From contig JAPOYV010000010.1 of NCBI GenBank assembly GCA_026706385.1, positions 1 through 64,000 of the forward strand: a stretch of 64,000 bases of DNA, read 5' to 3'. The position numbers and the translations under genes are program-made. Of this stretch, positions 16,464 through 62,530 are shown in pieces. How positions within the stretch are numbered: the stretch's first letter is position 1; each line of letters begins with the position of its first letter. The notes below the pieces were generated by a model. It saw only the letters and a list, made by a program, of their open reading frames with translations, searched no databases and had not been told where the DNA came from. The DNA is from Gammaproteobacteria bacterium. GTDB taxonomy: Bacteria; Pseudomonadota; Gammaproteobacteria; Pseudomonadales; Azotimanducaceae.

Positions 16464-17771
16464 TCAGCCGAGGCTCCGCAACGCCTCGCCGATCCGCTCG
16501 ATCCCCTTGGCGATCTCGCGCTCGTCCACCGTGTAGGCGAAGCGAACGTGTTCATCAGCCCGAAACGCCCCGAAGTCGGTCCCCGGGGTGACCGCCACGC
16601 CGAACTGCTCGATCAGACGCTCGCAGAACGTCTCGCTGTCCAAACCCGTCGCGCCGATGTCCGCATAGGCATAGAAGGCCCCGGTTGGCCGCTGGGCAAC
16701 GGACAAGCCAAGACTGGCGAGGCCGTCCAGAAGCACCTCGCGGCGCCGCGCGAAGATCCGGCGACGTTCCTCGTGGACCGCCATCGCGGGAGCCTGCAGG
16801 GCGGCCAGCGCCGCGTACTGCGCTACGCTCGGGGGCGCGATGTACAGATTCTGGGCAACGCGCTCGATCGCATCCATCGCGGATGCCGGTGCGATCAGCC
16901 AACCCAAGCGCCAGCCCGTCATGCCGAAGTACTTGGAAAAGCTGTTGACCACGAAAATGCCGTCGTCGACGGTCAAGGCCGACTCAAAGAGCAGGTCTTC
17001 CCCTGCCAGGGCATCTTCCGCGTCGTAGACCAGACCGTTGTATATCTCGTCGACGATCACGAAGCCGCGGTCGGCGACGAAGTCACGCATGGCCACCAAG
17101 TCGGCGCAGCGGAGGACGCTGCCCGTGGGGTTCGCCGGGCTCCCGAGCAATACGCCCGCAGTGCGCGGCGTCCAGGCGTCCTCAAGCGCCCCGCGGTCGA
17201 GCTGGAACCGTGTCGAAGCGGAGACCGGCACGCGGCGCGCCACGCCCCCGGCCGCCTGGATGAACACATCGTTGCAGGGGTACCCGGGATCCGGCACGAG
17301 CACCTCCGCGCCGGGATCGACGAGCACCTGTGCGAGCAGATTCAAGGCGCCACTGGCACCCGTGGTCACCGCAACGCGACCGGCCTCGACCCCGTAGCGC
17401 GCGGCAATGGCGGCCCGCAAAGCCGGCAAGCCCAGCGCCTGCGTATAGCCCGTCCGCCCCGTCGACAGCGCCTCGATCCCCGCCGCGACCACGGTCGGCG
17501 CGGTGGGAAAGTCCGGCTCACCCACCTCGAAATGCACGACGTCGCGACCGGCCCGCTCGAGTTCGCGCGCCCGTTCGAGGATCTGCACGACCCGGAATGG
17601 CGCAATTCCACCGACCCGGCGCGCGAGTTTGGGAGCCCTCAGCCGGGGAGCGCGAGGGGCCTGCCCCTCGCAAGAAGGAGCCCTCAGCCGGGGAGCGCGA
17701 GGGGCATCCCCCTCAGAAAAAAGACCGCGCCACGAAGGCCCGTTTTCGGCAGCCCCGGAGGCGCTATTCAT
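16464..17771 (-). CDS. PLP-dependent class I/II aminotransferase
   Basis: A 435-residue aminotransferase with VHFEVGEPDFPTAPTV, TTGASGALNLLAQVL, GSPANPTGSV, FVIVDEIYNGLVY and the PLP-lysine block NSFSKYFGMTGWRLGW. Relatives start MNPKLARRVGGIAPF; here about 45 extra residues lie before KLARRVGG. Part of that extension is the antisense reading of two 45-base copies of a repeated element (17633-17722). No start codon lies between the repeats and KLARRV, so the repeats appear to be translated. ATG 17771 is the best start; 17792 is an alternative. It diverges from dksA, the arrangement I recall in Pseudomonas. Confidence 0.87.
   Translation of the reverse strand: MNSASGAAENGPSWRGLFSEGDAPRAPRLRAPSCEGQAPRAPRLRAPKLARRVGGIAPFRVVQILERARELERAGRDVVHFEVGEPDFPTAPTVVAAGIEALSTGRTGYTQALGLPALRAAIAARYGVEAGRVAVTTGASGALNLLAQVLVDPGAEVLVPDPGYPCNDVFIQAAGGVARRVPVSASTRFQLDRGALEDAWTPRTAGVLLGSPANPTGSVLRCADLVAMRDFVADRGFVIVDEIYNGLVYDAEDALAGEDLLFESALTVDDGIFVVNSFSKYFGMTGWRLGWLIAPASAMDAIERVAQNLYIAPPSVAQYAALAALQAPAMAVHEERRRIFARRREVLLDGLASLGLSVAQRPTGAFYAYADIGATGLDSETFCERLIEQFGVAVTPGTDFGAFRADEHVRFAYTVDEREIAKGIERIGEALRSLG
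17633..17722 (+). repeat. two tandem copies of the CCCTCAGCCGGGGAGCGC element
   Basis: Two 45-base units (17633-17677, 17678-17722) share the first 30 bases and differ at only a few positions after that. Each starts GAGCCCTCAGCCGGGGAGCG and continues into a GAGGGGC/GCCCCTC hairpin-like tail; in copy 1 the stem is perfect (GAGGGGC-CT-GCCCCTC). The 45-base period keeps the reading frame of the aminotransferase, which is on the other strand. Read on the plus strand each unit would give EPSAGEREG, the peptide seen in sense in pcnB and in the lipoprotein at 62 kb. Confidence 0.9.
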
Positions 17772-17917
17772 CGCTCGTTTCTGTATGGCCATTTGCAGAC
17801 GGTTTTGGTAGGTTACGCGCCCCGCCGAATCCGGCTCTCGCGGTCGGAAGCATACGGGCAAGGCGCAACGCTTGCGAGCGACCGGCCATTCTCAAGAAAT
17901 CGAGAGGTTCAAAGCAA

Positions 17918-18400
17918 ATGTCCGCAAACGCGAATTCCGGCCAGGCGCCGGGCCAAGCACCCAACCGCAGCGCCGCGCCGGCGGATTCGCAGTTCGTCAA
18001 CTTCACCCCGTATGCGCCCGAAGACGGCGAGGAGTACATGAGCGCCGGACAGGTCGAGCACTTTCGCGCGATGCTCGAGACATGGCGCCGCGAGCTGATG
18101 GAGCAGGTCGACCGGACAGTCAACCATCTGCAGGACGAGGCGTCGAACTTCCCTGATCCGGTCGACCGTGCCACGCAGGAAGAGGAACTCGGCATCGAAC
18201 TGCGCACCCGCGACCGCGAACGACGGCTGATCCGCAAGATCAGCGACACGCTGGCGCGGATCGACCGTGACGACTACGGCTACTGCGACACGTGCGGCGT
18301 CGAAATCGGCTTGCGCCGCCTCGAGGCGCGCCCCACGGCAACGCAATGCGTAGACTGCAAGGCGCTCGAGGAATTGCGCGAGCGGCAGCTTCGCGGCTAG
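17918..18400 (+). CDS. dksA: RNA polymerase-binding transcription factor DksA
   Basis: Binds the RNA polymerase secondary channel and, with ppGpp, adjusts rRNA and biosynthetic promoters. The 160-residue protein has the coiled-coil tip motif DPVDRA (the DxxDxA motif), followed by EEELGIELRTRDRERRLI, and a C-terminal four-cysteine zinc finger (CDTCG...CVDC). An N-terminal Ala/Gln-rich tail of about 25 residues is longer than usual. GAGAGG lies upstream, 11 bases from the ATG. It is followed by gluQ, the classical gammaproteobacterial pair. Confidence 0.96.
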   Translation: MSANANSGQAPGQAPNRSAAPADSQFVNFTPYAPEDGEEYMSAGQVEHFRAMLETWRRELMEQVDRTVNHLQDEASNFPDPVDRATQEEELGIELRTRDRERRLIRKISDTLARIDRDDYGYCDTCGVEIGLRRLEARPTATQCVDCKALEELRERQLRG

Positions 18401-19296
18401 GCGCGTCGCCTGGCGGCGACGCGAGATTCGCGGGGACGCGTTACCGGGGCCGATTCGCGCCCACGCCGTCCGGCCCGCTGCATCTCGGCTCGCTGCTCAC
18501 CGCGGTCGCCTCATGGCTTGACGCCCGCGCACAGGGCGGACACTGGGCGGTGCGCGTCGACGACCTCGACACGCCGCGCGTCGCGCCGGGCGCCGAGTCC
18601 GGGATTCTCAGATCGCTCGAAGCGCACGGCCTTACGTGGGACGGACCCCTCGTTCGACAAAGCCACCACGTCGACCTCTACCGTGACGCTCTGGGTGAAC
18701 TGACCGAGCACTGCTACGCCTGTCGCTGCAGCCGCCGGGATCTACGCGGCTCGACGGCGTATCCCGGCACATGCCGACACCTCGGACTGGCTCGGCAAGG
18801 CAACGCTATACGCGTCCGCGTTCCGGCCACACCCATCGCATTCGAAGACCGCATCCAAGGCCCCTACGGCGAAAACCTGGCGGCGACAACGGGCGACTTT
18901 GTCGTCTGGCGGCGGGACGGTATGGCGTCCTACCAGCTTGCCGTCGTGATCGACGACGACGCAATGGACATCAACGCCGTCGTCCGCGGTGCTGACCTGC
19001 TCGACAATACGCCGCGACAGCTCTATCTGCTGCAACGGCTCGGCCGGCCCGCGCCGCGCTACGCCCACGTCCCGGTCGTCGTCGAAGCGACGGGCGTCAA
19101 GCTCTCCAAGCACAATGCCGCCACCGCGATCGACGACCGCGCCGCTCCGCACAACCTCGCGACCGTTCTCGGGCTGTTGGGCTTCGACCCGCCCTGGGAT
19201 CGGGTCGACGCGATGCTCGACTGGGCGCGGCGGCGCTGGGACATCGCCGCGCTGCCTTCGGAAGCGTCGATTCGCGGTTTCACCGCCTTGGCATGA
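18346..19296 (+). CDS. gluQ: glutamyl-Q tRNA(Asp) synthetase
   Basis: Attaches glutamate to queuosine-34 of tRNA-Asp. It is a truncated GluRS-like enzyme: RGRFAPTPSGPLHLGSL (HIGH region), CYACRCSRRDL with a later Cys for zinc, and KLSKHNAAT (KMSKS-like). The catalytic body begins at about 18442. No ATG, GTG or TTG occurs in frame between the dksA stop and that point. The nearest starts are ATG 18346 and GTG 18292, both inside dksA, so the gene overlaps dksA by at least 55 bases. A stem-loop (18402-18423) sits in the extra segment. Identity is firm; the start is not. Confidence 0.88.
   Translation: MRRLQGARGIARAAASRLGASPGGDARFAGTRYRGRFAPTPSGPLHLGSLLTAVASWLDARAQGGHWAVRVDDLDTPRVAPGAESGILRSLEAHGLTWDGPLVRQSHHVDLYRDALGELTEHCYACRCSRRDLRGSTAYPGTCRHLGLARQGNAIRVRVPATPIAFEDRIQGPYGENLAATTGDFVVWRRDGMASYQLAVVIDDDAMDINAVVRGADLLDNTPRQLYLLQRLGRPAPRYAHVPVVVEATGVKLSKHNAATAIDDRAAPHNLATVLGLLGFDPPWDRVDAMLDWARRRWDIAALPSEASIRGFTALA
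18402..18423 (+). repeat. perfect 9-bp stem-loop at the dksA-gluQ junction
   Basis: CGCGTCGCC and GGCGACGCG flank a TGGC loop immediately after the dksA stop. It has no T-run, so it is not an obvious terminator. It lies within the frame of gluQ and could instead be a translational or RNA-stability element. Confidence 0.6.
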
Positions 19297-19328
19297 GTGC
19301 CATTCGGTAGATCAGTTAGACTCCAACG

Positions 19329-20672
19329 ATGATGCGCGTCCTCGTCCTGGAGCGTGACGCCGCCAAACGGCAGCGGCTGCGTGCCTTGCTCGAAGACAAC
19401 GCCTTTGAGGTTTTCGAAGCCACAGCCGCACCCGGCGCGCGCCAAGCCCACGGCAACCGCGTGCAGACGGTGTTGGCCGACGCGCTGTTGCTCGCCGAAC
19501 ACGACATCATCGCGCTCGCCCATCCGGTGCCGGTGATACTGATCGCTCACGCCCCGAGCGTCGGCCAAGCGGTCGAGTGCATGCGCAAGGGCGCCAGCGA
19601 CTACCTCGCTTGGCCATGCGAACCCGAACGACTCGTGGCCGCGGTCACAGCCGCAACCTCCCGGTTCCCCAACGGCGCCACCGGCACCGACGACCTGTCC
19701 GCCTTCGTCGGGGCCTCGCCCCCGGTCCGGGAACTCAAGGAACGCATACACGAGGCGGCGGCAGCGGCTGGCCCGGTCTTCCTGCGAGGGGAGCCGGGTA
19801 CGGGCAAGGAACTCGCCGCGCGCGCCCTGCACCATGCCAGTGATCGCCGCTACGCACCACTGATCGTCCTCAACTGCGCGACAACGGACGAAGCCTCGAT
19901 CGAACCGGCGCTGTTCGGCTACGACGTGGCACCCGGCGAGGGCGGGAGCGGCGGACTGATCGGCGCCGCGCACGACGGTACATTGCTCATCAAGGACATC
20001 GACCTCATGCCGGTCGCCGCACAGACCCGGTTGGTGCGGCTTCTCGACCACGGTGCTGCGCGGGAGAACAACACTTCAGCCGGCGCGCAGACCACGACGG
20101 ACGCGGCGGTTCGAGTCGTGGCGACGTCGCATCAGGACCTGCCGCAACTCGCGGCCAACGGACACTTCCTGGACCAACTGCTCGATGCCCTTGGGCAGAC
20201 CACGTTGCACGTCCCGCCACTGCGCGACCGGGGGGACGACGTCGTGCAAATCGCTCAGGCCGTCCTCGACCGGACCTCGGCCAAGCTCAACAAGCCAGGC
20301 ATCGGGTTCTCGGCCGCCGCCCTCGCGGCGCTGTGCAACCACCCGTGGCCCGGCAACGTCCGCGAGCTGAAAAACACCGTCGAACGCGCAGCGGGACTGT
20401 GCGATGCACCCGCCATTGATACGGACCTGCTGCCGTTCGACTTGAGCGAAGGCGGCACTTCGGCCGAACCGGCACCGGAGACCACGGGCAGTCTCGAGGA
20501 CTTTTTCGTGAGGTTCGTGCTCGCAAACCAGGACCAATACACGGAGACCGAGCTCGCCAGCCAACTCGGCATCAGCCGCAAGAGCCTGTGGGAACGGCGC
20601 CAACGCCTGAACATCCCGCGGCGGCGAACCCGGAAACGGGGACCCAGGCGACCTGCGGCGGGTCTGCGATAG
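19329..20672 (+). CDS. CbrB/NtrC-family regulator with degenerate receiver and AAA+ motifs
   Basis: A 447-residue receiver-AAA+-Fis regulator lying between gluQ and pcnB, the place of cbrB in Pseudomonas. The C-terminal HTH (ELASQLGISRKSLWERRQRL) is very CbrB-like. The rest has decayed from the active form. The receiver lacks the paired acidic start (LVLERD instead of VDDD), and its conserved Lys is Trp (YLAWP). Walker A is kept (GEPGTGKE), Walker B is changed (TLLIKDID instead of TLFLDEI), and GAFTGA, which contacts sigma-54, is missing (VAPGEGGSGG). No CbrA kinase is adjacent. It may regulate without phosphorylation or sigma-54. Confidence 0.85.
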   Translation: MMRVLVLERDAAKRQRLRALLEDNAFEVFEATAAPGARQAHGNRVQTVLADALLLAEHDIIALAHPVPVILIAHAPSVGQAVECMRKGASDYLAWPCEPERLVAAVTAATSRFPNGATGTDDLSAFVGASPPVRELKERIHEAAAAAGPVFLRGEPGTGKELAARALHHASDRRYAPLIVLNCATTDEASIEPALFGYDVAPGEGGSGGLIGAAHDGTLLIKDIDLMPVAAQTRLVRLLDHGAARENNTSAGAQTTTDAAVRVVATSHQDLPQLAANGHFLDQLLDALGQTTLHVPPLRDRGDDVVQIAQAVLDRTSAKLNKPGIGFSAAALAALCNHPWPGNVRELKNTVERAAGLCDAPAIDTDLLPFDLSEGGTSAEPAPETTGSLEDFFVRFVLANQDQYTETELASQLGISRKSLWERRQRLNIPRRRTRKRGPRRPAAGLR

Positions 20673-20717
20673 CCGGCTGCATCGCGGGCCTCACGACACT
20701 TGAGGCTCGTTAACCGC

Positions 20718-20723
20718 TACAAT
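20718..20723 (+). promoter_or_regulatory. -10-like TACAAT upstream of pcnB
   Basis: TACAATCCGCCG repeats the string found before hemL and lies 21 bases before the GTG start of pcnB. Because it would sit inside the reading frame if an upstream TTG (20700) were used, it argues for the GTG start. The -35 region is weak. Confidence 0.35.
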
Positions 20724-20744
20724 CCGCCGCTGTCGGAAGCACCT

Positions 20745-22121
20745 GTGCCCGCCCAAGCGCTAAGTTCCTTGCCAACGCGGATCGACGACTCCCGCCTTGA
20801 CCCCGCCCGGGTATCCCGCGCCGCGGTTGCCGTGATCGATGGTCTACGCGATGCCGGCTTCGACGCCTACCTGGTCGGGGGTTGCGTGCGCGACCTCCTG
20901 CTCGGCCGCACGCCAAAGGACTTCGACATCGCAAGCGATGCCACACCGGAAGAGGTGCGCGAGGTGTTCCCTCGCGTGCGTGTCGTGGGGCGCCGCTTCC
21001 GCATCGCCCATGTCCGCATCCGTCGGGAGGTGATCGAGGTCTCCACCTTCCGCCGCGCTCTCGACGAAGGCGACGGGCGTCGTCCGGTGGTGTCGAGCGA
21101 AGGTGTGATACTGCGCGACAACGCCTACGGCGCCATCCACGAGGATGCCTTCCGTCGCGACTTCACGGCCAATGCGCTCTACTACGACCCGATCGGGCAT
21201 GTCCTGCTCGACTACTGCGACGGCCTGAAGGACCTCGAGGCACGCACGCTGCGCGCCATCGGAGACCCCGAGACCCGGTTCCGCGAGGATCCCGTGCGCA
21301 TCCTGCGTGCCGTCCGTTTCGCCACCAAGCTCGACCTCACGCTGCACGCCGAAACACGGAGAGCCATCGCGCCGACGCGCGCCATGCTCGACGCCATACC
21401 GCCTGCACGTCTATTCGATGAATTCGGCAAGCTGTTCATGGGTGGCGCCGGCGAGCGGACCTTCGAGGCGTTGCAGCAACACGACCTGATGTCGCACCTG
21501 GTCCCCTTGAGCGAGGACGGGGGCGACCTCGCGCGACTGGCGCTGGCCAACACGGATCAACGGATCCGCGAGGGCAAGCCGGTGACACCCGGATTCCTGC
21601 TCGCTGCGTTCCTGTGGCCTGAATTCGTCCACCGCACGGAAACGGCCGGGCCTCGTCAGCCGACCGAGGAGCAACTCGACAGCGCTGCCATGGCGGTCCT
21701 CGCCGCGCAGCAGTCCACCTTGGCGATTCCGCGTCGGCACGCCTACTTCGTGCGCGAGGTTTGGCGATTGCAGCCCGCCTTGGCGTGGCGAACCGCCAAG
21801 AATGTGCCGCGAGTGCTGGCCCACCGCCGGTTTCGTGCCGCATACGACTTCCTGCTGCTGCGCAGCGAGGTAGACGAAGAGCCCTCAGCCGGGGAGCGCC
21901 CCCGCCGCGAAGCGGCGGGCAGGGGCACTGCCCCTCACAACGGCGAACTCCGCGAGCTTGCGGATTGGTGGACCGAGGCCCAGACGCTCGACGCCGACGA
22001 CCTGGCCCAACGGCTGCCCCGCGAACGCTCCCCGCGACGGCGACGACGCCGTTATGCGCATGGCAACCGCCGCAAGAGCAACCCCATGGCGACTGCCAAC
22101 GGGGCCGCCGCGGCGCCATAA
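20745..22121 (+). CDS. pcnB: poly(A) polymerase I
   Basis: Adds 3' poly(A) tails that promote RNA decay. The nucleotidyltransferase core shows LVGGCVRDLLLGRTPKDFDI with the DxD metal pair, then the RFREDPVRILRAVRFA neck motif and a basic Arg-rich C-terminus. GTG 20745 was chosen because GGAAG lies 5 bases upstream. Near the C-terminus the line LLLRSEVDE...ELRELADWWTEAQ is interrupted by about 20 extra residues starting EPSAGERPRREAAG. These come from a copy of the dispersed element (21879-21936), inserted in frame. The order dksA-gluQ-cbrB-pcnB-pan is Pseudomonas-like. Confidence 0.95.
   Translation: MPAQALSSLPTRIDDSRLDPARVSRAAVAVIDGLRDAGFDAYLVGGCVRDLLLGRTPKDFDIASDATPEEVREVFPRVRVVGRRFRIAHVRIRREVIEVSTFRRALDEGDGRRPVVSSEGVILRDNAYGAIHEDAFRRDFTANALYYDPIGHVLLDYCDGLKDLEARTLRAIGDPETRFREDPVRILRAVRFATKLDLTLHAETRRAIAPTRAMLDAIPPARLFDEFGKLFMGGAGERTFEALQQHDLMSHLVPLSEDGGDLARLALANTDQRIREGKPVTPGFLLAAFLWPEFVHRTETAGPRQPTEEQLDSAAMAVLAAQQSTLAIPRRHAYFVREVWRLQPALAWRTAKNVPRVLAHRRFRAAYDFLLLRSEVDEEPSAGERPRREAAGRGTAPHNGELRELADWWTEAQTLDADDLAQRLPRERSPRRRRRRYAHGNRRKSNPMATANGAAAAP
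21879..21936 (+). repeat. dispersed palindromic element inserted in frame in pcnB
   Basis: The head GAGCCCTCAGCCGGGGAGCG is identical to the copies at 17.6 kb. It is followed by two perfect hairpins: CCCGCCGC-GAA-GCGGCGGG (21901-21919) and AGGGGCA-C-TGCCCCT (21921-21935). The second ends in TGCCCCTCACAA, similar to the tail TGCCCCTCGCAAG at 17.66 kb. The reading frame of pcnB passes through without a stop. Confidence 0.88.
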
Positions 22122-22127
22122 CGGACC

Positions 22128-22808
22128 GTGCCCGCCGCGCCAGGCGACGCCGTCCTCACCCGGCCGTTCGCGCCCAAGTTCATTGCCATTGAAGGTCCCA
22201 TCGGCGTTGGCAAAACCACCTTGGCACGCCGCTTGGCGGACACCTTCCGGCGCCCACTCCTCCTTGAGCCCGCCGCCGAGAACCCTTTCCTGGACCGCTT
22301 CTACCGGGAGGGACGACGCTACGCGCTGCCGACCCAGCTCTTCTTCCTGCTCCATCGCGCCGACCAGGTCGCCCGCCTGGCCGACGAAGACCTGATCGGG
22401 CCGCTCCTGGTCGCCGACTTTCTCATCGAGAAGGACCGCCTGTTCGCGGAGGTCACGCTGGACGCCCATGAGATGACGCTCTATGAGCAGATCTATCGCA
22501 CGCTCGACATACGCCCGCCACGGCCCGACCTAGTGATCTACCTGCAAGCACCCGTGCCGGTGTTGCTCGACCGAATCCGCCGCCGCGGAATCGGCTACGA
22601 GCAGCGTATCGACACGGAATACCTCACGTCCTTAAGCGATGCCTACGCCGAGTTCTTCCACTTCTACGAAAACGCGCCGCTGTTGATCGTCAACGCCGCG
22701 GAGATCGACTTCGCACACAACGAGCGTCACTACGGCGCGCTGGTCGCACAGATCGAGGCGATGGACAGCGTCCGCCAATACTTCAACCCGAATCCCACCT
22801 TGCTATGA
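22128..22808 (+). CDS. deoxynucleoside kinase family protein
   Basis: A P-loop kinase of 226 aa that should phosphorylate deoxyribonucleosides in salvage. It has FIAIEGPIGVGKTTLARRL (Walker A), then EPAAENPFLDRFY, DRLFAEVTL, and an RIRRRGIGYEQ LID-type segment typical of the deoxyadenosine/deoxyguanosine kinase group. GTG 22128 starts 6 bases after pcnB. In Pseudomonas folK occupies this position before panB; no folK is seen here. Substrate preference cannot be read. Confidence 0.85.
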   Translation: MPAAPGDAVLTRPFAPKFIAIEGPIGVGKTTLARRLADTFRRPLLLEPAAENPFLDRFYREGRRYALPTQLFFLLHRADQVARLADEDLIGPLLVADFLIEKDRLFAEVTLDAHEMTLYEQIYRTLDIRPPRPDLVIYLQAPVPVLLDRIRRRGIGYEQRIDTEYLTSLSDAYAEFFHFYENAPLLIVNAAEIDFAHNERHYGALVAQIEAMDSVRQYFNPNPTLL

Positions 22809-22818
22809 TCGGCTCGCC

Positions 22819-23640: not shown

Positions 23641-23652
23641 CGGGCTAATCCC

Positions 23653-24495: not shown

Positions 24496-24554
24496 TGGTT
24501 CGGCGTGACGCGCGGACGTCCGCGTCCGCATCGACCGCTCGCTAGACGCAACGT

Positions 24555-26241: not shown

Positions 26242-28170
<1,929 letters not shown>

Positions 28171-28173
28171 GGC

Positions 28174-30888: not shown

Positions 30889-30892
30889 GTCG

Positions 30893-31230: not shown

Positions 31231-32145
31231 TCATTTCACGATCAACCGGCGTGGGGCGACCCGACCATCGTCGAGTATCTCGCCCACGCCGATAAACGTT
31301 CCTTCGGTGTCCGTGCCCTCGATCAGCCGCACCCAGCCCGTTGTCGGGGCGTGCGGCACCAAGACGGGCTGGCCTTGCTTCAAATAAAAGGCCGGGGCGC
31401 CGGTGAGGGCCACTTCCGGCCACTGCCCCACGGTAGAGGCCACCGGGCGCAACAGGCCGTCAAGCCTGTGTTCGAGGCGTGCCGTCTCGATGTCTTCGAG
31501 CGTCGCGAGGTCGTCCTCGCCATAAGGTCCCGCCTGCGTGCGCCGTAGCGCGTCGACGTGCGCCCCGCAACCGAGCGCCTCGCCCAGGTCATGCGCGATG
31601 GTGCGCACGTAGGTGCCCTTGCTGCAGTGGATGTCCAAGCTCAGTCGCGTCCCTTCAAAGGCGACGATGTCGTTTTGATAGACCGTCACCGGCCGCGCCT
31701 CGCGTTCGATCTCGATGCCAAGGCGTGCCAGCTTGTAGAGCGGCTTGCCATGATGCTTGACGGCCGAGAACATGGACGGCACCTGCTCGATCTCGCCGCG
31801 GAAGGCATCCAGGGCACGCTCCAGATGAGGGCGGTCAATGCCTTTCACCTCGCGCTCCTGCAAGACCTCCCCGTCGGCGTCGCCGCTATTCGTGGAAATG
31901 CCGAGGCGAACGTGCGCGAGGTAGCGCTTGTCCGAGTTCAACAGGTATTGCGAGAACTTCGTCGCGTCACCGAGACACAGCGGCAGGACGCCCGTGGCCA
32001 ACGGATCCAGGCTCCCCGTATGGCCGACCTTGCGCGCGTTGAATGCCCGCTTCACACGCTGCACGGCGTCGCTCGAACTCATCCCGGCCGGCTTGTCGAG
32101 CACGATCACGCCGCTCACATCGCGGCCTCGACCCCTACGTGCCAA
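31231..32145 (-). CDS. truB: tRNA pseudouridine(55) synthase
   Basis: Makes pseudouridine 55 in the T-loop of tRNAs. The 304-residue protein has GVIVLDKPAGMSSSDAV, the catalytic GHTGSLDPLATGVLP with its Asp, KRYLAHVRLGI and CSKGTYVRTIAHDLGEALG. A PUA domain follows at the C-terminus. The start is TTG 32145, which aligns with E. coli TruB and overlaps the end of rbfA by 11 bases. A GTG nine codons later would cut the conserved RRGRD start. Confidence 0.95.
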   Translation of the reverse strand: MARRGRGRDVSGVIVLDKPAGMSSSDAVQRVKRAFNARKVGHTGSLDPLATGVLPLCLGDATKFSQYLLNSDKRYLAHVRLGISTNSGDADGEVLQEREVKGIDRPHLERALDAFRGEIEQVPSMFSAVKHHGKPLYKLARLGIEIEREARPVTVYQNDIVAFEGTRLSLDIHCSKGTYVRTIAHDLGEALGCGAHVDALRRTQAGPYGEDDLATLEDIETARLEHRLDGLLRPVASTVGQWPEVALTGAPAFYLKQGQPVLVPHAPTTGWVRLIEGTDTEGTFIGVGEILDDGRVAPRRLIVK

Positions 32146-50373: not shown

Positions 50374-53045
<2,672 letters not shown>

Positions 53046-53049
<4 letters not shown>

Positions 53050-54373: not shown

Positions 54374-54377
54374 CGCG

Positions 54378-55942: not shown

Positions 55943-56370
55943 CGTTGTTGCCTGACGTTGTATCCGGCGACCAGCCAGTTCCCATCCGCTTGCTGCTGCA
56001 TGTGGACCGTCTCGAAGATGGTGCCGTTCTGCCAATACGAGTCGTAGACCACAGCCGCGTAGAGTCCGGAGGGTGCACCCCAAGGGTTTCGGATGACGCG
56101 AGTCACGTTCTGCTCGCGAGACTTGAAGGCACCCAGCGGATCGCGGTAGCCGGCGGCCTTCGTGACCCAGGTCTCGCGACTCTCCGTATCTCGGAACAGT
56201 TGCGCCGCCGCGTCCCAGCAGCGCTCGTACTCCTCGGCATCCATGAGCGCAAGCCAAGGCTCCGCGGCGGCCGTAGCGGCTCTTTCCGCCGCCGGGTTGG
56301 ACTCCGCGCAGCCGCCGACCAGCACCACCGCGAAAGCCGCGAACAGGCACGCACCGCGCGTTCCGGACAT
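55939..56370 (-). CDS. DUF4019 lipoprotein
   Basis: A 143-residue lipoprotein: signal peptide with lipobox VGGC (about Cys21), then AAEPWLALMDAEEYERCWDAAAQLF, ETWVTKAAGYRDPLG and SREQNVTRV, the DUF4019 pattern. Function is unknown. ATG 56370 is chosen because it follows the amidohydrolase stop by 10 bases; an in-frame ATG at 56394 overlaps that stop. The end overlaps the thiolase start (ATGA). A lipoprotein in the middle of a CoA-dependent catabolic operon is unexpected. Confidence 0.82.
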   Translation of the reverse strand: MSGTRGACLFAAFAVVLVGGCAESNPAAERAATAAAEPWLALMDAEEYERCWDAAAQLFRDTESRETWVTKAAGYRDPLGAFKSREQNVTRVIRNPWGAPSGLYAAVVYDSYWQNGTIFETVHMQQQADGNWLVAGYNVRQQR

Positions 56371-56380
56371 CGACCGCCCG

Positions 56381-57520
56381 TCAATCCAAACCATAAAACC
56401 GTATCACGTTCTCCCCGAGGACCTTGCGCTGCGCCTCGGTCGGCAGAGCCCGGATGCTCTCCCGCATTTCCTTGACAACGCCGAAGGAGGCGTCGATGTG
56501 CGGATAGTCCGATGCCCAGGTGACGCTGTCCGCACCGATGTGGTTCACCACCTCGGTCGTCATGCCTTCGTCCGGGTCCATGGAGATCAGGCATTGACGG
56601 TAGAAGTACTCGCTCGGCTTCAAGCGGAACGGGGCGGCACGGCGCATCACCTCCGACTTGTGGTCGAGGCGGTCCAGCCACGCCGAGATCCAGTTGCCGC
56701 CGGCTTCGAGCACGGAGCATTTCAGACGGGGATAGCGCTCGAACATCCCGGCGCTGATCATCGCCGTGAAGGCGGCCATCACGTCGATGGCCAGGAATGC
56801 GAAGAAGAACAGCGCCGCTCCCGCGTTGGGCTCCGGCATGTGGTGGAAGGCGTTCTGTTCGCGAACCACGACGTGGAAGCCGATCGGCATGTCGAGATCC
56901 TGGACGGTCGCCCAGAACCGATCGTAGACGGGATCCGTTAAGCGGCGACCGTTGCGGGCCGGCGCGTCCGGCGACAGGTAGACGCCGACGCAACCCGCCT
57001 TGCGCGCCCGGATCACCTCGTCAACGGCACCGTCGGGGTCGATCAACGAGATATGTGCCACCGGGTAGAGCCGGCGCGGGGAGTGCGCGCAGAAATCGAC
57101 GATCCAGCGGTTGTACGCCCGGGCATAGGCCGTCGCCAATTCGGGATCGTCCACGTTGCCTTCCCAACAGATGCCGATCGTGGGATACAGCAGGACGCGG
57201 TCGATGCCTTCCGCGTCGAGAACCTTGATGCGCTCGGCCGGATCGTACGAACCCGGTGGCGACCCATCCTCGTAGGTGTATTCGCGCGTCAGGCTGCCAA
57301 GCTGACCCGGCTCGAGTTCGATCCCCCCGAGCGTCCCGAGGTTGCCGCGCAGCAGTTCCATCGGCTTGTTGTCGAACCACAGACGCTCGAGCCCGGTGTC
57401 GTCCCTGGCGATGCGGATCGCGCGGTCCCGGAACGCCGGATCGATGTACCGCTGCCATGTGTCGGCTGGCTCGAGGACATGGCCGTCGGAGTCGACGACG
57501 TCCATCGGTCGGCTTTCCAT
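56381..57520 (-). CDS. amidohydrolase family 2 (ACMSD-like) protein
   Basis: A 379-residue TIM-barrel metal enzyme of the ACMSD/gamma-resorcylate decarboxylase group. DSDGHVLEP at the N-terminus stands for the family's DxHxH-like metal site (only one His is kept). FHVVVREQNAFHH and WASDYPHIDASF carry later metal and catalytic residues. GAGGAG lies 7 bases before ATG 57520. It heads the operon with a DUF4019 lipoprotein, an Ltp2-like thiolase and DUF35. It may decarboxylate or hydrolyse the acid released by that pathway. Confidence 0.87.
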   Translation of the reverse strand: MESRPMDVVDSDGHVLEPADTWQRYIDPAFRDRAIRIARDDTGLERLWFDNKPMELLRGNLGTLGGIELEPGQLGSLTREYTYEDGSPPGSYDPAERIKVLDAEGIDRVLLYPTIGICWEGNVDDPELATAYARAYNRWIVDFCAHSPRRLYPVAHISLIDPDGAVDEVIRARKAGCVGVYLSPDAPARNGRRLTDPVYDRFWATVQDLDMPIGFHVVVREQNAFHHMPEPNAGAALFFFAFLAIDVMAAFTAMISAGMFERYPRLKCSVLEAGGNWISAWLDRLDHKSEVMRRAAPFRLKPSEYFYRQCLISMDPDEGMTTEVVNHIGADSVTWASDYPHIDASFGVVKEMRESIRALPTEAQRKVLGENVIRFYGLD

Positions 57521-57609
57521 GGGGACTCCTCGTTGTGTGGCGGGGCGGCCATTGTAATGACTCCGCGCCCGCCTGCGGTCAGTCGGTGTCAGCAACCGCA
57601 GAAGTAGGC

Positions 57610-57638
57610 TTGACCCATTTTACAAGTGTAAATATACT
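57610..57638 (+). promoter_or_regulatory. hicBA promoter with palindromic operator
   Basis: TTGACC (57610-57615), a 17-base spacer and TATACT (57633-57638) form a strong promoter 32 bases before hicB. The spacer contains the palindrome TTTACA-AG-TGTAAA (57619-57632). A repressor bound there would block RNA polymerase. HicB proteins often autorepress, so HicB is the likely ligand. The AT-rich composition stands out from the neighbours. Confidence 0.75.
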
Positions 57639-57670
57639 GTACCCATCATTACCAATTGTTGAAAAGCGCC

Positions 57671-58186
57671 ATGGCCATTCACGAAGAGGTACTCGCCGCT
57701 GCTCGCCGGCTCTGCCAAGCGCGAGGATCTTGGACATTTTCGCCGTCCGACATCGTCGGTGCCCTTCCGCACCTCAATGAACGGTCCGTGCGAACCCATG
57801 TTGTGAGCCGGTGCTGCGCCAACGCTCCGAGCCACCATGCGCATCGCTGGGCGTACTTCCAACGCCTCGAGCGCGGCCTCTACGAGATCCGCGCCGGCTA
57901 CCGCGACGCCGACCCCTTGCAGGTCGCCGACACTCCAGCCACCTACGAGCTTGCGACCGTGACACCGCGCCAGTCCATTCACGCGGTTGTGGTCGAAAGC
58001 GAAGGGCTCTACGTGGCGGAGTGCTTAGAGATCGCCATCGTCACGCAAGGGGCAACCTTGGACGAGACGCTCGCCCAGCTACGCGAGGCTGTCATCCTCT
58101 ACATGGCCGACGAGGATCCGCGCACGGTAGGCGTCGTTCCTAAGCCGCGTCTGCAGGTGACACTGGAAGTCGCGACAGGCTGCTAG
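57671..58186 (+). CDS. hicB: HicB-family antitoxin with N-terminal winged-helix-like domain
   Basis: A 171-residue protein. Residues about 75-165 form the HicB partial-RNase-H fold (SIHAVVVESEGLYVAECLEIAIVTQG, TLDETLAQLREAVILYM). Residues 1-72 form an extra domain resembling a small winged helix (WTFSPSDIVGALPHLNERSVRTHVVSR), a type I know from DUF7669-like domains. ATG 57671 is chosen over an upstream TTG. It lies directly before a HicA gene. The N-terminal domain probably supplies DNA binding, which in many HicBs comes from a C-terminal HTH instead. Confidence 0.82.
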   Translation: MAIHEEVLAAARRLCQARGSWTFSPSDIVGALPHLNERSVRTHVVSRCCANAPSHHAHRWAYFQRLERGLYEIRAGYRDADPLQVADTPATYELATVTPRQSIHAVVVESEGLYVAECLEIAIVTQGATLDETLAQLREAVILYMADEDPRTVGVVPKPRLQVTLEVATGC

Positions 58187-58314
58187 CCATGCGCCATCGA
58201 AAGAACCCTTGGCTAGCGCGGCTACGCCCATCCAGAAACCCGCCAAGGCCCGACGGCCAGGAACTTTGCTCAAACTGCACAGATGAACCGCGGTCGAGAA
58301 AAACCGCTAGGACC

Positions 58315-58560
58315 ATGCCGCGGCTAAGGCGGCTCGGCGCCCGAGATGCCCTGCGGGTGCTGCATGAGTTCGGTTTCGAGGTCGTGTCCATACGGGGCAG
58401 CCATGCGAAGGTCGTGCGGATCGGCATGGACGGGCGGAAGGAAATCCTTGTCGTCCCCGTCAACAGACAACTGGCGTTGGGCACCCTGCACGCCATCTAC
58501 CGTCAGGCATGCCGCTTCATTCCGGAAGATCTTCTGCGGCCCCATTTCTTCACCGACTGA
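58315..58560 (+). CDS. hicA: HicA-family mRNA interferase toxin
   Basis: An 81-residue double-stranded RNA-binding-fold toxin of the YcfA/HicA family. The FGFEVVSIRGSHAKVVRI block carries the catalytic His, and GTLHAIYRQACRFI is the conserved helix. ATG 58315 gives the usual family length. An in-frame ATG at 58189, 3 bases after hicB, would add 42 unrelated residues; neither has a clear ribosome site. The order hicB-hicA is the reverse of the E. coli arrangement. Confidence 0.82.
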   Translation: MPRLRRLGARDALRVLHEFGFEVVSIRGSHAKVVRIGMDGRKEILVVPVNRQLALGTLHAIYRQACRFIPEDLLRPHFFTD

Positions 58561-58586
58561 CCCACCGGGGGCCGGCTCTGGAGTGC

Positions 58587-58615
58587 TTGACAACCCCTTG
58601 ACGCGCTTCGACAAT
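58587..58615 (+). promoter_or_regulatory. promoter of tRNA-Met (elongator)
   Basis: A consensus TTGACA (58587-58592), a 17-base spacer and GACAAT (58610-58615) are followed by a C/G-rich discriminator, as in stable-RNA promoters. It starts 27 bases after the hicA stop. Confidence 0.75.
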
Positions 58616-58620
58616 CCCGC

Positions 58621-58653
58621 CCCGTCCTAAGGACGGGCTCCGTCCTAAGACGG
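58621..58653 (+). repeat. two CCGTC/GACGG hairpins between hicA and tRNA-Met
   Basis: CCCGTCC-TAA-GGACGGG (58621-58637) and CCGTC-CTAA-GACGG (58640-58653) follow each other. No T-run follows either. They lie just after the predicted start of the tRNA transcript, so they would be in its 5' leader. They may guide tRNA processing or end the hicBA transcript. Confidence 0.6.
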
Positions 58654-58679
58654 GCCGCGTCGGACGGGGCACGGGGCGA

Positions 58680-58756
58680 GGCTGCGTAGCTCAGTTGGTT
58701 AGAGCACAGCATTCATAATGCTGGGGTCGTTGGTTCAAGTCCAACCGCAGCTACCA
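58680..58756 (+). tRNA. elongator tRNA-Met (CAT)
   Basis: A 77-base cloverleaf with encoded CCA. The anticodon loop is TTCATAA on the stem CAGCA/TGCTG, which lacks the three G-C pairs of initiators. The acceptor stem is GGCTGCG/CGCAGCT with a G1-T72 wobble. The body resembles E. coli metT. A tRNA-Ile2 precursor with CAT is less likely given this similarity. Confidence 0.93.
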
Positions 58757-58812
58757 CCGTCCGATAATCGCTCGGTCGCGTAGACGTCACCAACCCGCGA
58801 GAAACCGAACCC

Positions 58813-59226
58813 ATGAAAACCGTGCCCACCAAAGCGAGTGTCGCCGCGTTCCTCGGACAGCTCGACGATGCCAAGCGCCGGGACGCCGAGACCGTCGCCG
58901 CAATCATGGAGGAGGTCACCGGTGCACCGGCCGTGATGTGGGGCAGTTCCATTGTCGGCTTCGGGCGATACCACTACCGCTACGCCAGCGGTCGCGAAGG
59001 GGACTTCTTCGTTGCCGGCTTCGCGCCGCGCAAACGCGCGCTGACCCTTTACATCATGGCCGGCTTCGCCGCGTACGACGCACTCCTTCTGAAGCTCGGC
59101 AAGTTCACCGTCGGCAAGTCCTGCCTATACGTCAAACGGCTCGCAGACGTCGACTTGGCCGTGCTGCGCGAACTCATCGAACAGTCAGCGGCAGCCATCC
59201 GCGACAAGTACCCGGACGAGGCTTGA
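58813..59226 (+). CDS. DUF1801 domain protein
   Basis: A 137-residue cytoplasmic protein with the DUF1801 pattern: VAAFLGQLDDAKRRDAETVAAIMEEVTG, PAVMWGSSIVGFGRYHYRYASGREGDFFVAGFAPRK and LGKFTVGKSCLYVKRLADVD. Some relatives (YdhG, frataxin-like fold) are proposed iron chaperones. Its stop overlaps the TTG start of the next gene (TTGA). Confidence 0.87.
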   Translation: MKTVPTKASVAAFLGQLDDAKRRDAETVAAIMEEVTGAPAVMWGSSIVGFGRYHYRYASGREGDFFVAGFAPRKRALTLYIMAGFAAYDALLLKLGKFTVGKSCLYVKRLADVDLAVLRELIEQSAAAIRDKYPDEA

Positions 59227-59678
59227 CCGAGGCGGCGCACCGCCAGCGCGCGGATATCAACGAAGAGGCTCTGCCCTTCCTGCGGCGACGGATCGTCGAC
59301 ATGCTGCCGGCGCGCCGCGTCACGGCCAAGCTGATTGCAGAGAACATCGCCTTCGGCGCGGCGGTTCTCGGGGCCGGGCACATCGAACTGGTCGACGACG
59401 GCCCCTGGTGGTTCATCGCCAGCGAGTTCAACTGGCTTGGCGCATCGAAGGCGGCCGAAAGCGAGGTCGAACTGTTCGAACGCCTGGTGCCGTTCCCAGA
59501 GCAGTCCCCCACGGGGCACCGCGCCGAGATCTATGTCACGGCGTTCGCCGACCACGCCTACTTCCGCATCGGCGACGTCGTCACCTGGATTCGCGGGGAA
59601 CCGATTGCCGATGGCTTGCCGGATGCCGGCGTGACGCCGCCGTGGTGCAGCAACGTGTTGGCGTTCCGGATGGCCTGA
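59223..59678 (+). CDS. hypothetical protein
   Basis: A 151-residue protein I do not recognise. A TTG start overlapping the DUF1801 stop is chosen because it gives coupled translation and no ATG lies before ALPFLRRRIVDMLP. The protein has no signal peptide or membrane segment. It has an aromatic-rich middle (DDGPWWFIASEFNWLG) and an acidic helix (AAESEVELFERL). It converges with ychF 12 bases away. Confidence 0.65.
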   Translation: MTEAAHRQRADINEEALPFLRRRIVDMLPARRVTAKLIAENIAFGAAVLGAGHIELVDDGPWWFIASEFNWLGASKAAESEVELFERLVPFPEQSPTGHRAEIYVTAFADHAYFRIGDVVTWIRGEPIADGLPDAGVTPPWCSNVLAFRMA

Positions 59679-59690
59679 GGGTTCCGGCCG

Positions 59691-60782
59691 TCAGACGTTG
59701 AAGCGAAAGTGGACCACGTCACCGTCCTGCACGGCGTAGTCCTTGCCTTCGAGGCGACGCTTGCCCGCTTCGCGCGCGCCGACCTCGCCACCGCAAGCGA
59801 TGTAGTCGTCGTAGCCGATGACTTCGGCGCGAATGAAGCCGCGCTCGAAGTCCGTGTGGATGACGCCCGCAGCTTGCGGCGCCAACGTGCCCACCGGCAC
59901 CGTCCATGCGCGGGCTTCCTTGGGACCCGCCGTGAAGTAGTGGTGCAGGCCAAGCAGCCGATAGCCCGCCCGCACCACGCGGTCGAGACCCGCCTCGGCC
60001 AAGCCGAGGTCGGCGAGGAACTCGGCGCGATCGGCGGAATCGAGTTCGCTGATCTCCGCCTCGATCTTGGCGCATACCGGCACCGCGACCGCGCCTTGCG
60101 CCGCCGCCAGGGTGACGACCTCGTCGAGCATGGGGTTGGCGTCGAAGCCGTCCTCGGCGACATTCGCGACGTACATCACCGGCTTCTGCGTGATGAAGTG
60201 ACAGTCCCGCAGCGCCGCCAACTCGTGGGCGGCCAATCCTTGCGCACGCACCGGTGTGCCCGCATCGAGCGCTTCCCGAACGCGGTCGAGGATCGCGACC
60301 AGCGCTTGTGCATCCTTGTCCCCCGCGTTGGCCACGCGCCGATGCCGGTCGTGAACGCGGTCCGCGGTTTCCAGGTCCGCAAGCGCGAGTTCCGTCTCGA
60401 TGACCTCGATGTCGTCGCGCGGCGACACCCGGCCCACAACGTGGACAACGTTGGCGTCGTTGAAACAGCGCACGACGTGGGCGATGGCATCCGCTTCCCG
60501 GATGTGGGCGAGGAACCGGTTGCCGAGGCCTTCCCCCTTGGACGCGCCAGCCACCAGGCCCGCGATGTCTACGAATTCCATCGCGCTCGGGACGACCCGT
60601 GCCGGATTGACGATTTCGGCGATCCTGTCGAGGCGCGGATCCGGGATCGGCACGACGCCGGTATTCGGCTCGATCGTGCAGAACGGAAAGTTCTCGGCTT
60701 CGATGCCGGCACGCGTCAGCGCGTTGAACAACGTCGACTTGCCAACGTTCGGAAGCCCGACGATGCCGCAGTGGAAACCCAT
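59691..60782 (-). CDS. ychF: redox-regulated ATPase YchF (Obg family)
   Basis: A ribosome-associated P-loop protein that prefers ATP. The 363-residue protein has [47 protein letters not shown] and a C-terminal TGS-type domain ([27 protein letters not shown]). Its ATG shares one base with the pth stop (TGATG), the normal pth-ychF coupling. Confidence 0.97.
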
Positions 60783-61372
60783 CAGAGACTCGGCCGCGGT
60801 GCGTGGAAGAGGTTCATCGCCCCGTCGATGTCGCCGTCGAGGACCAGATCGAGGACTTGGTCGTCGAGATCCGCGGACTCGGCCGCGGCGTCACGCTCCG
60901 CCTGCGGCATCGCAACGCCCGTGAGGTACGCCACCATGTTCTCGGCACTTCCCGGATGTCCCACCCCGATCCGCAACCGGGGGAATCCACGGTCATTGGC
61001 CAAGCCGGCGATGACGCTCTTCAGGCCGTTGTGCCCATTGTGGCCTCCGTCCTTCTTGAGCCGGCTCACGCCGACGGGGAACGCGACTTCGTCGTAGGCC
61101 ACGAGGACCTCCTGCGCGGTCATTCGGTAGAAACGCGCGACGGCTCCGACCGCCTCGCCGGAGAGATTCACGTAGGTCGTCGGCAACAGCAGTCGGACGT
61201 CCCGACCGAGGATGTCGCCGCGGCCCAACAGACCCTTGAACTTTCGATCGTCAGCCAGACGAATGCCGAACCGTTGGGCCAGTTCCAGGAGCCAGGCCGC
61301 GCCGACATTGTGGCGAGTCCGCGCATACCGTGTCCCCGGGTTGCCGAGGCCGGCGATCAGGCGAATGGCCAC
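60782..61372 (-). CDS. pth: peptidyl-tRNA hydrolase
   Basis: Releases tRNA from abortive peptidyl-tRNAs. The 196-residue protein has [22 protein letters not shown] with the catalytic His, [25 protein letters not shown] and [13 protein letters not shown]. It follows rplY by 24 bases. Confidence 0.97.
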
Positions 61373-61396
61373 GGCGGACGGACCGACGGAGGAGCG

Positions 61397-62056
61397 CTAC
61401 TCGCTGTCCGGTTCGACTTCCGCTTCGGGCTCTTGCTCTTCGTCGCCTTGGTCATCGTCCTCGCTCGGGCCGCCGCGCCGCGCCGTCACGCTGATGACCG
61501 GCATGTCGTGGTCGGCGCCGAGGCCCAAGGCGACGATGCTGACGCCTTCGGGCAACTCGAGATCGGACAGGTGCAAGGACTGCCCCACGTGCATGTCCGC
61601 GACGTCCACTTCGATGTACTCCGGCAAATGCCGCGGCAGACAGCTAACCTCGATCTCGATCAGGTTGTGCGCCAAGCGGCCACCGTCGAGTTTGACGCCC
61701 GCACACTGCTCTTCGTTGGCGAAGCGCAAGGGGACATTCATGTGCACCGGCAAGTCCTCCCGGACGCGCAGGAAGTCGACGTGTTGAACCCGCTCCGTGG
61801 CCGGGTGCCGCTGGACGTCCCGCAGCACGCACGCCTGGGTCACGTCCCCGACCTCGATGTTCAGTATCCGCGAGGAGAATGCCTCTTCCTGCATCGCCCT
61901 GGCGAGATCACGGGACGCGATGGACAACGCCACAGGGTCTCGACCACCGCCATAGAGGATGCCGGGGACCTTCTCGTCGAGACGGCGAAGGCGTCGACTC
62001 GCGCCTTTGCCCACCTGTTCGCGGAACTCCGCGCGGACGACGATTTGCTCTGCCAT
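61397..62056 (-). CDS. rplY: 50S ribosomal protein L25/general stress protein Ctc
   Basis: A 5S rRNA-binding protein of the long CTC type (219 aa): N-terminal L25 domain (VVRAEFREQVGKGASRRLRR, VPGILYGGG) and a C-terminal beta domain ending in an acidic tail. ATG 62056 is preferred because GGAG lies 9 bases upstream; ATG 62062 is too close to it. The order tRNA-Gln-rplY-pth-ychF matches Pseudomonas, but prs, which I expect just before rplY, is missing. Confidence 0.94.
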   Translation of the reverse strand: MAEQIVVRAEFREQVGKGASRRLRRLDEKVPGILYGGGRDPVALSIASRDLARAMQEEAFSSRILNIEVGDVTQACVLRDVQRHPATERVQHVDFLRVREDLPVHMNVPLRFANEEQCAGVKLDGGRLAHNLIEIEVSCLPRHLPEYIEVDVADMHVGQSLHLSDLELPEGVSIVALGLGADHDMPVISVTARRGGPSEDDDQGDEEQEPEAEVEPDSE

Positions 62057-62126
62057 GGTCATGTGCTCCACTCGCCACGGGGCAAGCAACCCCCCGCGAC
62101 GATGACATCTCATGCATTTCAAAAGC

Positions 62127-62201
62127 TGGCTGGGGCGGCAGGATTCGAACCTGCGCATGCCGGGATCAAAACCCGGTGCCTTACCGCTTGGCGACGCCCC
62201 A
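62127..62201 (-). tRNA. tRNA-Gln (TTG)
   Basis: A 75-base cloverleaf with encoded CCA. The anticodon loop TTTTGAT reads TTG on the stem CCGGG/CCCGG. The acceptor TGGGGCG/CGCCCCA with the weak T1-A72 pair and G73 are GlnRS identity elements. It lies 70 bases before rplY on the same strand. Confidence 0.95.
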
Positions 62202-62253
62202 ATTCGATGCGACGCGCATCGCGTCCAGCACGCTCTACCCAAAAGGGCGGCGT

Positions 62254-62282
62254 ATTCTGATTGGCGCGTGTCGGGCTGTCAA
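62254..62282 (-). promoter_or_regulatory. promoter of tRNA-Gln(-rplY-pth-ychF)
   Basis: On the minus strand TTGACA (62282-62277), a 17-base spacer and CAGAAT (62259-62254) are followed by a GC-rich discriminator. The -35 overlaps the stop codon of the small lipoprotein gene. The start would be near 62247, about 46 bases before the tRNA. Confidence 0.75.
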
Positions 62283-62530
62283 CGCGCGCCTTGCTCCGGC
62301 GACCGCCTGCCCGTGCGCTCCCCGGCTGAGGGCTCGAGCGCACTCGCCCGTTGCCGTTCGTACTCCTCGTACGTCGCCGGGAGAAGCTGCTCGCGACATC
62401 GTTCCCGCTCCGCCGCGCTGACCTTGAGGTCGCACTCCCTGACGTTCTCTCGATACACGGCGTCGTAGCGATCCTGTGCGGTACAGGCTGCGACGCTCGC
62501 GACCAGCACGCCGACCGAGGCCACTCGCAT
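62279..62530 (-). CDS. small lipoprotein with C-terminal EPSAGER element
   Basis: An 83-residue lipoprotein of unknown function. The signal peptide RVASVGVLVASVAAC has a lipobox with Cys at about 16. A charged helix follows (YDAVYRENVRECDLKVSAAE, RERCREQLL, YEEYERQR). The last 20 residues begin ALEPSAGERTGRR and come from a copy of the dispersed element, so the element supplies the C-terminus. The gene starts 10 bases after lolB and is probably cotranscribed with it. Confidence 0.75.
   Translation of the reverse strand: MRVASVGVLVASVAACTAQDRYDAVYRENVRECDLKVSAAERERCREQLLPATYEEYERQRASALEPSAGERTGRRSPEQGAR
62315..62335 (-). repeat. dispersed element head in the 3' end of the lipoprotein gene
   Basis: The minus strand matches the 21-base head found at 17.6 and 21.9 kb exactly (core CCCTCAGCCGGGGAGCGC). 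The hairpin tail seen elsewhere is not conserved after it, so this copy may be truncated or older. Confidence 0.85.

Follow-up and report, generated by a model that had tools for sequence, protein, structure and literature searches.

The window, a stretch of 64,000 nt, contains four exact copies of the 20-nt sequence GAGCCCTCAGCCGGGGAGCG, where 0.05 would be expected by chance (four were reached in none of 100 shuffles). These copies probably belong to a family of mobile elements that are very small and non-autonomous, in which a hairpin unit would be inserted beside GAGCCC-like sequence by an enzyme acting in trans. An earlier note on this DNA had claimed the four copies and had described them as a mobile or amplifying repeat. 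Both claims hold: the repeat is dispersed and amplifying, bears hairpins and is able to insert into genes with the frame kept intact, and the genome-wide count of its core, which had been set beforehand as a test, was 134 rather than a few.

Copies in the Window and Their Host Genes

The exact copies are at positions 17633-17652 (+), 17678-17697 (+), 21879-21898 (+) and 62316-62335 (-). When up to five mismatches are allowed, the only additional matches in the window are two look-alikes with five mismatches each (53400 + and 60511 -). The copies and their hosts are as follows.

16467..17861, minus strand: host gene 1, an aminotransferase class I/II (PF00155)
17633..17677, plus strand: unit 1, 45 bp, with head, hairpin CGAGGGGC-CT-GCCCCTCG and tail AAGAAG; it lies antisense in the N-terminal tail of the aminotransferase
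17678..17722, plus strand: unit 2, also 45 bp, with a slightly decayed hairpin and the tail AAAAAA; GACCGC comes next
20778..22121, plus strand: host gene 2, pcnB, poly(A) polymerase; the element codes for residues 368-389 within PF12626 (297-425)
21879..21944, plus strand: 66-bp unit with head, extra hairpin CCCGCCGCGAAGCGGCGGG, second hairpin AGGGGCACTGCCCCT and tail, followed by GAACTC
62282..62527, minus strand: host ORF 3, small and lipoprotein-like (label from sequence), with EPSAGER close to the C-terminus
62316..62335, minus strand: head alone, hairpin absent, a truncated or decayed copy

As the earlier note had it, the aminotransferase copies are tandem 45-bp units, read antisense, that directly precede KLARRVGG. 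The insert is absent from three outgroup proteins, and a single unit, its head decayed, is present in the sister species, G007. Judging from homologues, the likely start of this gene is the methionine of MAIQKR at about 17792. The pcnB unit was also described correctly: it is in the sense orientation, has two perfect hairpins and directly precedes ELRELADWW, and the GAACTC on its 3' side resembles GAGCCC. Fourteen other PcnB proteins of the same genus were aligned; G007 has a 45-bp form, and the insert is absent in 13 of the 13 others (a further match in G002, which does not span the insertion site, was left out of the count). The inserted segment of PcnB is predicted to be an unstructured linker, with a pLDDT below 50 for residues 368-386 and a helix on each side in the structure prediction. 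The insertions examined in homologues are not shared beyond G007. In the small lipoprotein-like ORF, the head and EPSAGER are present near the C-terminus; the hairpin is missing, and the ORF has no Pfam match.

Unit Architecture, Abundance and Host Range

The common unit is 45 bp and consists of a 20-nt head (GAGCCYTCAGCSGGGGAGCG), a hairpin (CGAGGGG, a variable loop of mostly 3-4 nt, and CCCCTCGC) and a purine tail of 6-7 nt; a second hairpin distinguishes the 66-bp form. Units are found singly or as tandem arrays. Arrays are often located at contig ends. The unit ends, GAGCCC and AAGAAA, are not complementary, and terminal inverted repeats are absent, as are GTAG, CGTC and their complements from the common unit and the tandem junction. 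The hairpin loops differ between copies, and the unit folds only mildly better than shuffled sequence. Five of the six reading frames of the common unit are open, and Rfam has no family at the element.

The 5.1-Mb source genome has 134 heads and three matches to the reversed control. Copy number ranges from 0 (G015) to 249 (G007) across 16 genomes of the same genus; G012, G013, G058, G059 and G061 have 4, 6, 4, 45 and 43 copies, respectively, and the set that includes the last three may overlap with the 16. Near-identical units are present in different genera, and 368 other members of the class contain one stray match. Putative copies also lie in an acidobacterial bin. The species range is to be read as a lower bound. 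No match was found in viral contigs. Because the spread is narrow and the units are nevertheless near-identical in different genera, these patterns would suggest exchange among co-resident symbionts.

Two trivial explanations were rejected. The counts (4 versus 0.05 in the window, 134 versus 3 in the genome and one match in 368 class members) rule out chance or an ancient protein motif. An assembly artefact is ruled out because the copies recur in separate assemblies, two of which are single-contig (G060 and G061).

Occupancy and Insertion Sites

The occupancy of sites has altered since the two sister species split. Fifty-five clusters of the source genome were compared with G007; 16 have no ortholog pair there, and in 18 of the 39 that do, a recognisable copy is absent from G007. 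In the other direction, 9 of the 31 G007 clusters with a pair have no copy in the source genome, one of the nine being a chance look-alike (L316) and another ambiguous (L321). Homologues at the tested sites indicate gain. For example, an efflux-pump-like gene with a 66-bp unit only in the source genome is too short for the unit in 9 of the 9 other genomes listed besides G007, and at an esterase-like gene whose site is filled in G007 alone, extra bases are present in 0 of the 11 outgroup genomes listed, some of which may contribute paralogues because identity is 51-58%. Unit number at shared sites varies, often by 45-bp steps.

In 9 of the 22 filled/empty pairs, the insertion is exact (gap 0) with no target duplication, and the other 13 have non-zero gaps. 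Clean insertions consist of whole units placed immediately 5' of host sequence that resembles the first six bases of the unit, GAGCCC. In the 17 of 22 pairs used (five were dropped), 53 of 102 empty-site positions agree with GAGCCC, as compared to 31.1 at random, a total that none of 20,000 draws reached; for the gap-0 pairs the match is 31 of 54 versus 16.5 (P 5e-5). The target is a GAGCCC-like preference rather than one set sequence.

Mobilisation of the Unit

We predict that movement of the unit proceeds through single-stranded DNA or a replication intermediate, folded on its own hairpin, and that the trans-acting enzyme cuts or joins beside GAGCCC-like sequence. The best fit would be a Y1/HUH transposase of the IS200/IS605 or REP type, because such enzymes use hairpins and leave no target duplication. 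Every inserted unit would supply a new GAGCCC, so that arrays may lengthen by re-insertion or slippage. Both the self-mimicking target and the changes by whole units suggest that the mechanism is simple. Tentatively, and with less conviction, we can go further and envisage an undescribed mobilisation system, in which a 45-nt hairpin unit is pasted exactly beside a copy of its own first six bases and each copy makes the next target; it would be common to genera, perhaps phyla, of co-living sponge bacteria and would write 15-residue unstructured modules into conserved proteins.

It is possible, although we would not favour it, that no enzyme is involved and that template switching or strand slippage during replication copies whole units, with the nascent end re-annealing at GAGCCC microhomology and overwriting it. 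The 45-bp steps in arrays agree with such copying. So does the right edge at L290, L081 and L292, where GAG or GAGCCC adjoins the element in the filled site and the empty site differs, which fits template switching; however, the overwriting signal is weak, since differing bases among the first six of the right flank are element-like 18 times in the filled site versus 11 in the empty one. The search for a transposase, both at the Y1 loci considered below and among 308 ORFs beside elements, was negative and is also in keeping with copying: no recurrent transposase or autonomous partner was recognised by eye in ORF clusters of at least three. The largest of these clusters (14 ORFs from 13 loci) is probably joined via element-coded stretches. 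Replication-strand bias is likewise absent in G060, where the clusters listed (n=53) are 10 plus/17 minus in one arm and 10 plus/16 minus in the other, the arms being taken from GC skew in 20 sampled stretches; this independence of GC skew argues against lagging-strand targeting. Enzyme-free copying has more difficulty with the near identity of the unit in different genera and with copy numbers of 249 (G007) and 0 (G015) in one genus when new sites share few bases with the unit, a difference that suggests a trans factor in some lineages.

If a trans-acting enzyme is the correct explanation, one candidate is the RAYT-like Y1 transposase family of the source genome, mobilising the units as in REP systems, but we regard this as doubtful. 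Its multi-copy relatives are in six genomes (G000, G007, G010, G003, G008 and G002), including the genome richest in elements within the genus, G007. Nevertheless, G008 has 13 Y1 matches but 5 elements, and the family has no match in element-bearing G021, G012, G013, G005, G009 and G014. PF01797 matches are present in 10 of the 16 genomes searched, and none were found in element-bearing G012, G013, G058, G059 and G061. Furthermore, none of 22 Y1 loci, taken with about 1.5 kb on each side, contains an element, several of these loci ending at a contig edge. The RAYT-like transposase family does not track the element.

Comparison with Known Systems

Features that define REP, MITE and Rickettsia elements are missing from the present one. 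Published work describes mobile DNA that adds protein segments and leaves genes unbroken in Rickettsia, Wolbachia and some REP-rich genomes (PMC2229807, PMC3733652). In PMC2229807, Rickettsia palindromic elements are 105-146 bp with 12-bp terminal inverted repeats, and they and the Wolbachia palindromic repeats occupy intergenic positions as well as in-frame positions within conserved genes, where the protein tolerates them. The resemblance to Rickettsia elements that the earlier note had proposed is one of outcome, i.e., dispersed palindromic DNA that is intergenic and in-frame intragenic. Structure, size and hosts differ, since the present unit is 45 or 66 bp, has a head plus hairpin and no terminal inverted repeats, forms tandem arrays and resides in gammaproteobacteria. 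An element of the classic MITE or Rickettsia type, with a DDE transposase as its mover, would also be small, dispersed and in frame within genes, but it is a very improbable reading of units that have no terminal inverted repeats and no target duplication at nine gap-0 sites, where it is contradicted.

IS200/IS605-type elements are marked by hairpins and make no target duplication. The present element has a hairpin mark too, with no duplication at 9 of 22 pairs, and its target is only a GAGCCC-like preference; it differs in that a partner transposase was not found, the 45-bp form has one strong hairpin, and G060 has no replication-strand bias. The mycobacterial MIRU are dispersed loci of variable unit number that adjoin gene ends; we know of no relation to the present unit in sequence or size, and the present units enter gene interiors too. 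The IS200/IS605 cleavage-site and guide model is set out in PMC8266576. As PMC3733652 describes them, GTAG/CGTC REPs are short palindromes with an unpaired tag at one end, in high copy and in clusters, some in frame inside genes and some near gene 3' ends. The present element shares the short palindrome, high copy, clustering and both placements; however, a conserved 20-nt head replaces the tetranucleotide, the arrays are direct tandems, and none of the 22 Y1 loci is flanked by the element.

In open-licence papers, taken without supplements or figures, neither a description of the element nor its core string was found. The element would represent an independent family of mobile DNA writing protein segments, the copy number of which differs greatly between close relatives. 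As the changes in occupancy are traceable, the neutrality, tolerance or usefulness of inserts can be tested at each site individually.

Placement and Frame in Genes

The earlier note had emphasized insertion inside protein-coding genes. In-frame intragenic copies do exist, but the element is not gene-specific: 17 of 58 clusters (of 63 in the source genome, those near contig ends being left out) are inside genes, a depletion from the 58.6% under in-silico random insertion, relative to which gene ends are enriched. The N-terminal placement class, into which the aminotransferase copy of the window falls, mixes upstream copies with true N-terminal tails. From the depletion we infer that harmful insertions are purged and that the surviving copies occupy tails, linkers and the ends of genes. 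Both unit lengths, 45 and 66, are divisible by three, and five of six frames are open, so that insertions in genes add at least 15 residues without a frameshift.

Some of these patterns might be expected if host selection had spread the sequence as a functional peptide or RNA signal. Sense copies just before stop codons account for 12 of the 58 clusters versus 2.6% expected, and 42 of 52 internal copies (repeated loci in relatives removed) are in sense, a modest excess over the roughly 69% expected from target counts. Host selection is, however, a remote prospect, given that the host genes looked at are unrelated and the loops vary. The frame count proposed in the note did yield a preferred frame, 26:11:5 among sense copies, which matches the codon phase of GAGCCC in genes, 137:60:27. 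The frame bias is therefore attributed to the codon phase of the target rather than to selection for the EPSAGER peptide.

Unit architecture and the copies in the window

Each unit runs from its conserved 20-base head through CGAGGGG, a variable loop mostly of 3-4 nt (CTTG, CCTG, GAA, GCA and others) and CCCCTCGC to a purine tail, e.g., AAGAAA. A perfect stem is present in 320 of the 442 units from all loci; the others comprise 17 units of the 66-bp type and 105 of other types or decayed. The predicted folds score only mildly better than those of shuffled controls (z from about -0.6 to -2.2). The units in the source genome are spaced 42, 45, 46 or 66 bases apart; all 30 spacings in clusters classed as intragenic are multiples of three, and both 46-base spacings fall outside such clusters. 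Steps of 41, 43 and 59 bp are also seen in certain other genomes, and loci L241 (from G007, the sister species) and L236 have arrays with a 43-bp period, which is not divisible by three.

All four head copies that the earlier note placed in the window are there (chance expectation, 0.05). The first two form a tandem of 45-bp units in an aminotransferase gene (PF00155 match), and the third, in pcnB (PF01743, PF12626 and PF12627 matches), belongs to a 66-bp unit whose two hairpins are perfect. The fourth is a head only, without a hairpin, and a Pfam search with the third host, a small ORF, gave no match. In G007, the pcnB site has the 45-bp form, and the aminotransferase site has one unit with a decayed head. 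An AlphaFold2 model of PcnB (mean pLDDT 79.7) gives residues 368-386 values below 50, between predicted helices 352-366 and 388-401.

Two other features of the window are:
31478-31522, minus strand: Guanidine-II (mini-ykkC) riboswitch match, score 32.1 (gathering score 32)
1-796, minus strand: 16S rRNA gene, truncated by the window start

Copy number and host range

The whole-genome search that the earlier note proposed (5.1 Mb, 134 contigs) found 134 heads with ≤3 mismatches, 70 of them exact, versus three for the reversed pattern. The DNA around the matches listed contains 120 heads in 63 clusters. Some arrays lie at contig ends:
G000:C7:21-85
G000:C34:96-115
G000:C52:16-278
Therefore, draft assemblies of such bacteria probably break at element arrays and undercount the copies.

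The CC head (≤2 mismatches) is present in 15 of 16 genomes of the genus, the source genome included, with 0 (G015) to 249 (G007) copies, in one of 21 further family members and in none of 21 further genomes from the order. Only one of 368 other genomes sampled from the class has a match, a single one with one mismatch. The matches listed in a scan with names belong to metagenome-assembled Gammaproteobacteria and Pseudomonadales, Candidatus Azophilus lithoversatilis and one acidobacterial bin; 16 genomes counted among them have 4 to 109 copies each. The acidobacterial copies (four, two of them with ≤1 mismatch) could be binning errors. The viral contigs searched had no copies. Presumably the SB06 bins come from sponges. 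The bin names RHO, COS, CAR and IRC agree with sponge species named in the available text of PMC8163846, and we infer that they refer to these species.

Insertion sites, probable gain and possible loss

Of 22 filled/empty pairs, two (window 17633 and L100) involve decayed copies and are not truly empty. Nine of the 22 have a gap of 0, i.e., the joined flanks equal the empty site exactly. This implies that whole units were inserted without duplication or loss. The right flanks of the empty sites resemble GAGCCC, the unit's own first six bases, with 53 of 102 matches versus 31.1 for random sites (17 pairs; five that had a decayed copy or wider gaps were left out); the gap-0 pairs alone have 31 of 54 versus 16.5. 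At L290, L081 and L292, the filled site has GAG or GAGCCC, the empty site differs and the bases further on are conserved. That the unit's next bases overwrote the target at some filled sites is only suggestive, because the differing bases among the first six are element-like in the filled site in 18 cases, in the empty site in 11 and in neither in seven.

An efflux-pump-like gene, so labeled from its sequence, has a unit only in the source genome, where the match is split into two pieces 66 bases apart; in G007 the match continues over the junction, as it does in nine more genomes that have at most 21 bases besides the aligned codons. An esterase-like gene is filled only in G007, and eleven outgroup genomes match without extra bases at 51-58% identity, which is so low that some may be paralogues. 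The PcnB insert is absent from all 13 outgroup proteins. These three sequence comparisons favor gain; at other sites, loss through recombination between GAGCCC repeats is possible.

Joined flanks from 55 source-genome clusters gave 42 matches in G007. By alignment, 39 of the 55 have an ortholog pair and 16 do not; 21 of the 39 are occupied, often with a different unit number, and 18 have no recognizable copy, although L082 and L087 are untidy and L100 contains a decayed copy. The reverse comparison, which shares part of its sites, gave 22 occupied, eight without a pair and nine empty in the source genome, including one look-alike without a hairpin and one ambiguous site.

Position and frame

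Only 17 of 58 source-genome clusters lie inside genes, versus 58.6% of 1,446 in-silico random insertions, and 12 of 58 are sense C-terminal, versus 2.6%; nine of these 12 have a stop codon ≤20 bases past the hairpin. One C-terminus elsewhere continues into EPSAGE sequence:
L282:1382-1946, minus strand: cold-shock-like protein (label based on sequence)

Internal copies (source genome and other loci, repeats removed) are in sense in 42 of 52 cases, with frames 26:11:5. GAGCCC itself has sense frames 137:60:27 in source-genome genes, and its most frequent antisense phase would bring the unit's TGA into frame. Thus, target choice and loss of stop-bearing insertions account for most of the frame pattern.

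Known systems and a putative mobilizing enzyme

RPE and intragenic REPs, as described in the available text of PMC2229807 and PMC3733652, are precedents in that units likewise decorate proteins. Unlike the RPE described there, the present family has no terminal inverted repeats, and unlike the REPs, it has no GTAG or CGTC tag. No RAYT (the REP transposase) was seen adjoining its units, and clean sites have no target duplications, which also differs from the known systems. A text search of open-licence papers did not find EPSAGER, the peptide encoded by the head, or the 17-base core string.

Single-strand transposition, in which a putative Y1/HUH-type enzyme would move the units, is favored over template switching, a serious rival for how they are produced. 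The three PF01797 matches in the source genome are marginal and belong to a RAYT-like multi-copy family with 22 matches, many being fragments. This family had no match in the element-bearing G021, G012, G013, G005, G009 and G014; G005 and G014 have a different PF01797 protein. The profile had no match in G012, G013, G015, G058, G059 and G061, all of which except G015 carry elements. None of the 22 Y1 loci examined has an element, no recurrent transposase was recognized among 308 ORFs neighboring elements, and orientation in the G060 clusters listed is independent of GC skew.

A RAYT-like Y1 transposase family with the motif RGGARPGAGRP is found at:
L109:12663-13529, minus strand
L107:5356-5865, minus strand
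L108:3-512, plus strand
Copies and C-terminal fragments of it are numerous in several genomes of the genus, frequently at the ends of contigs, and it is a dispersed repeat in its own right. At L356, L370 and L373, a peptide string resembling SGDRRRGRSVENA recurs in ORFs containing Y1 stretches and could represent another family of in-frame repeats.
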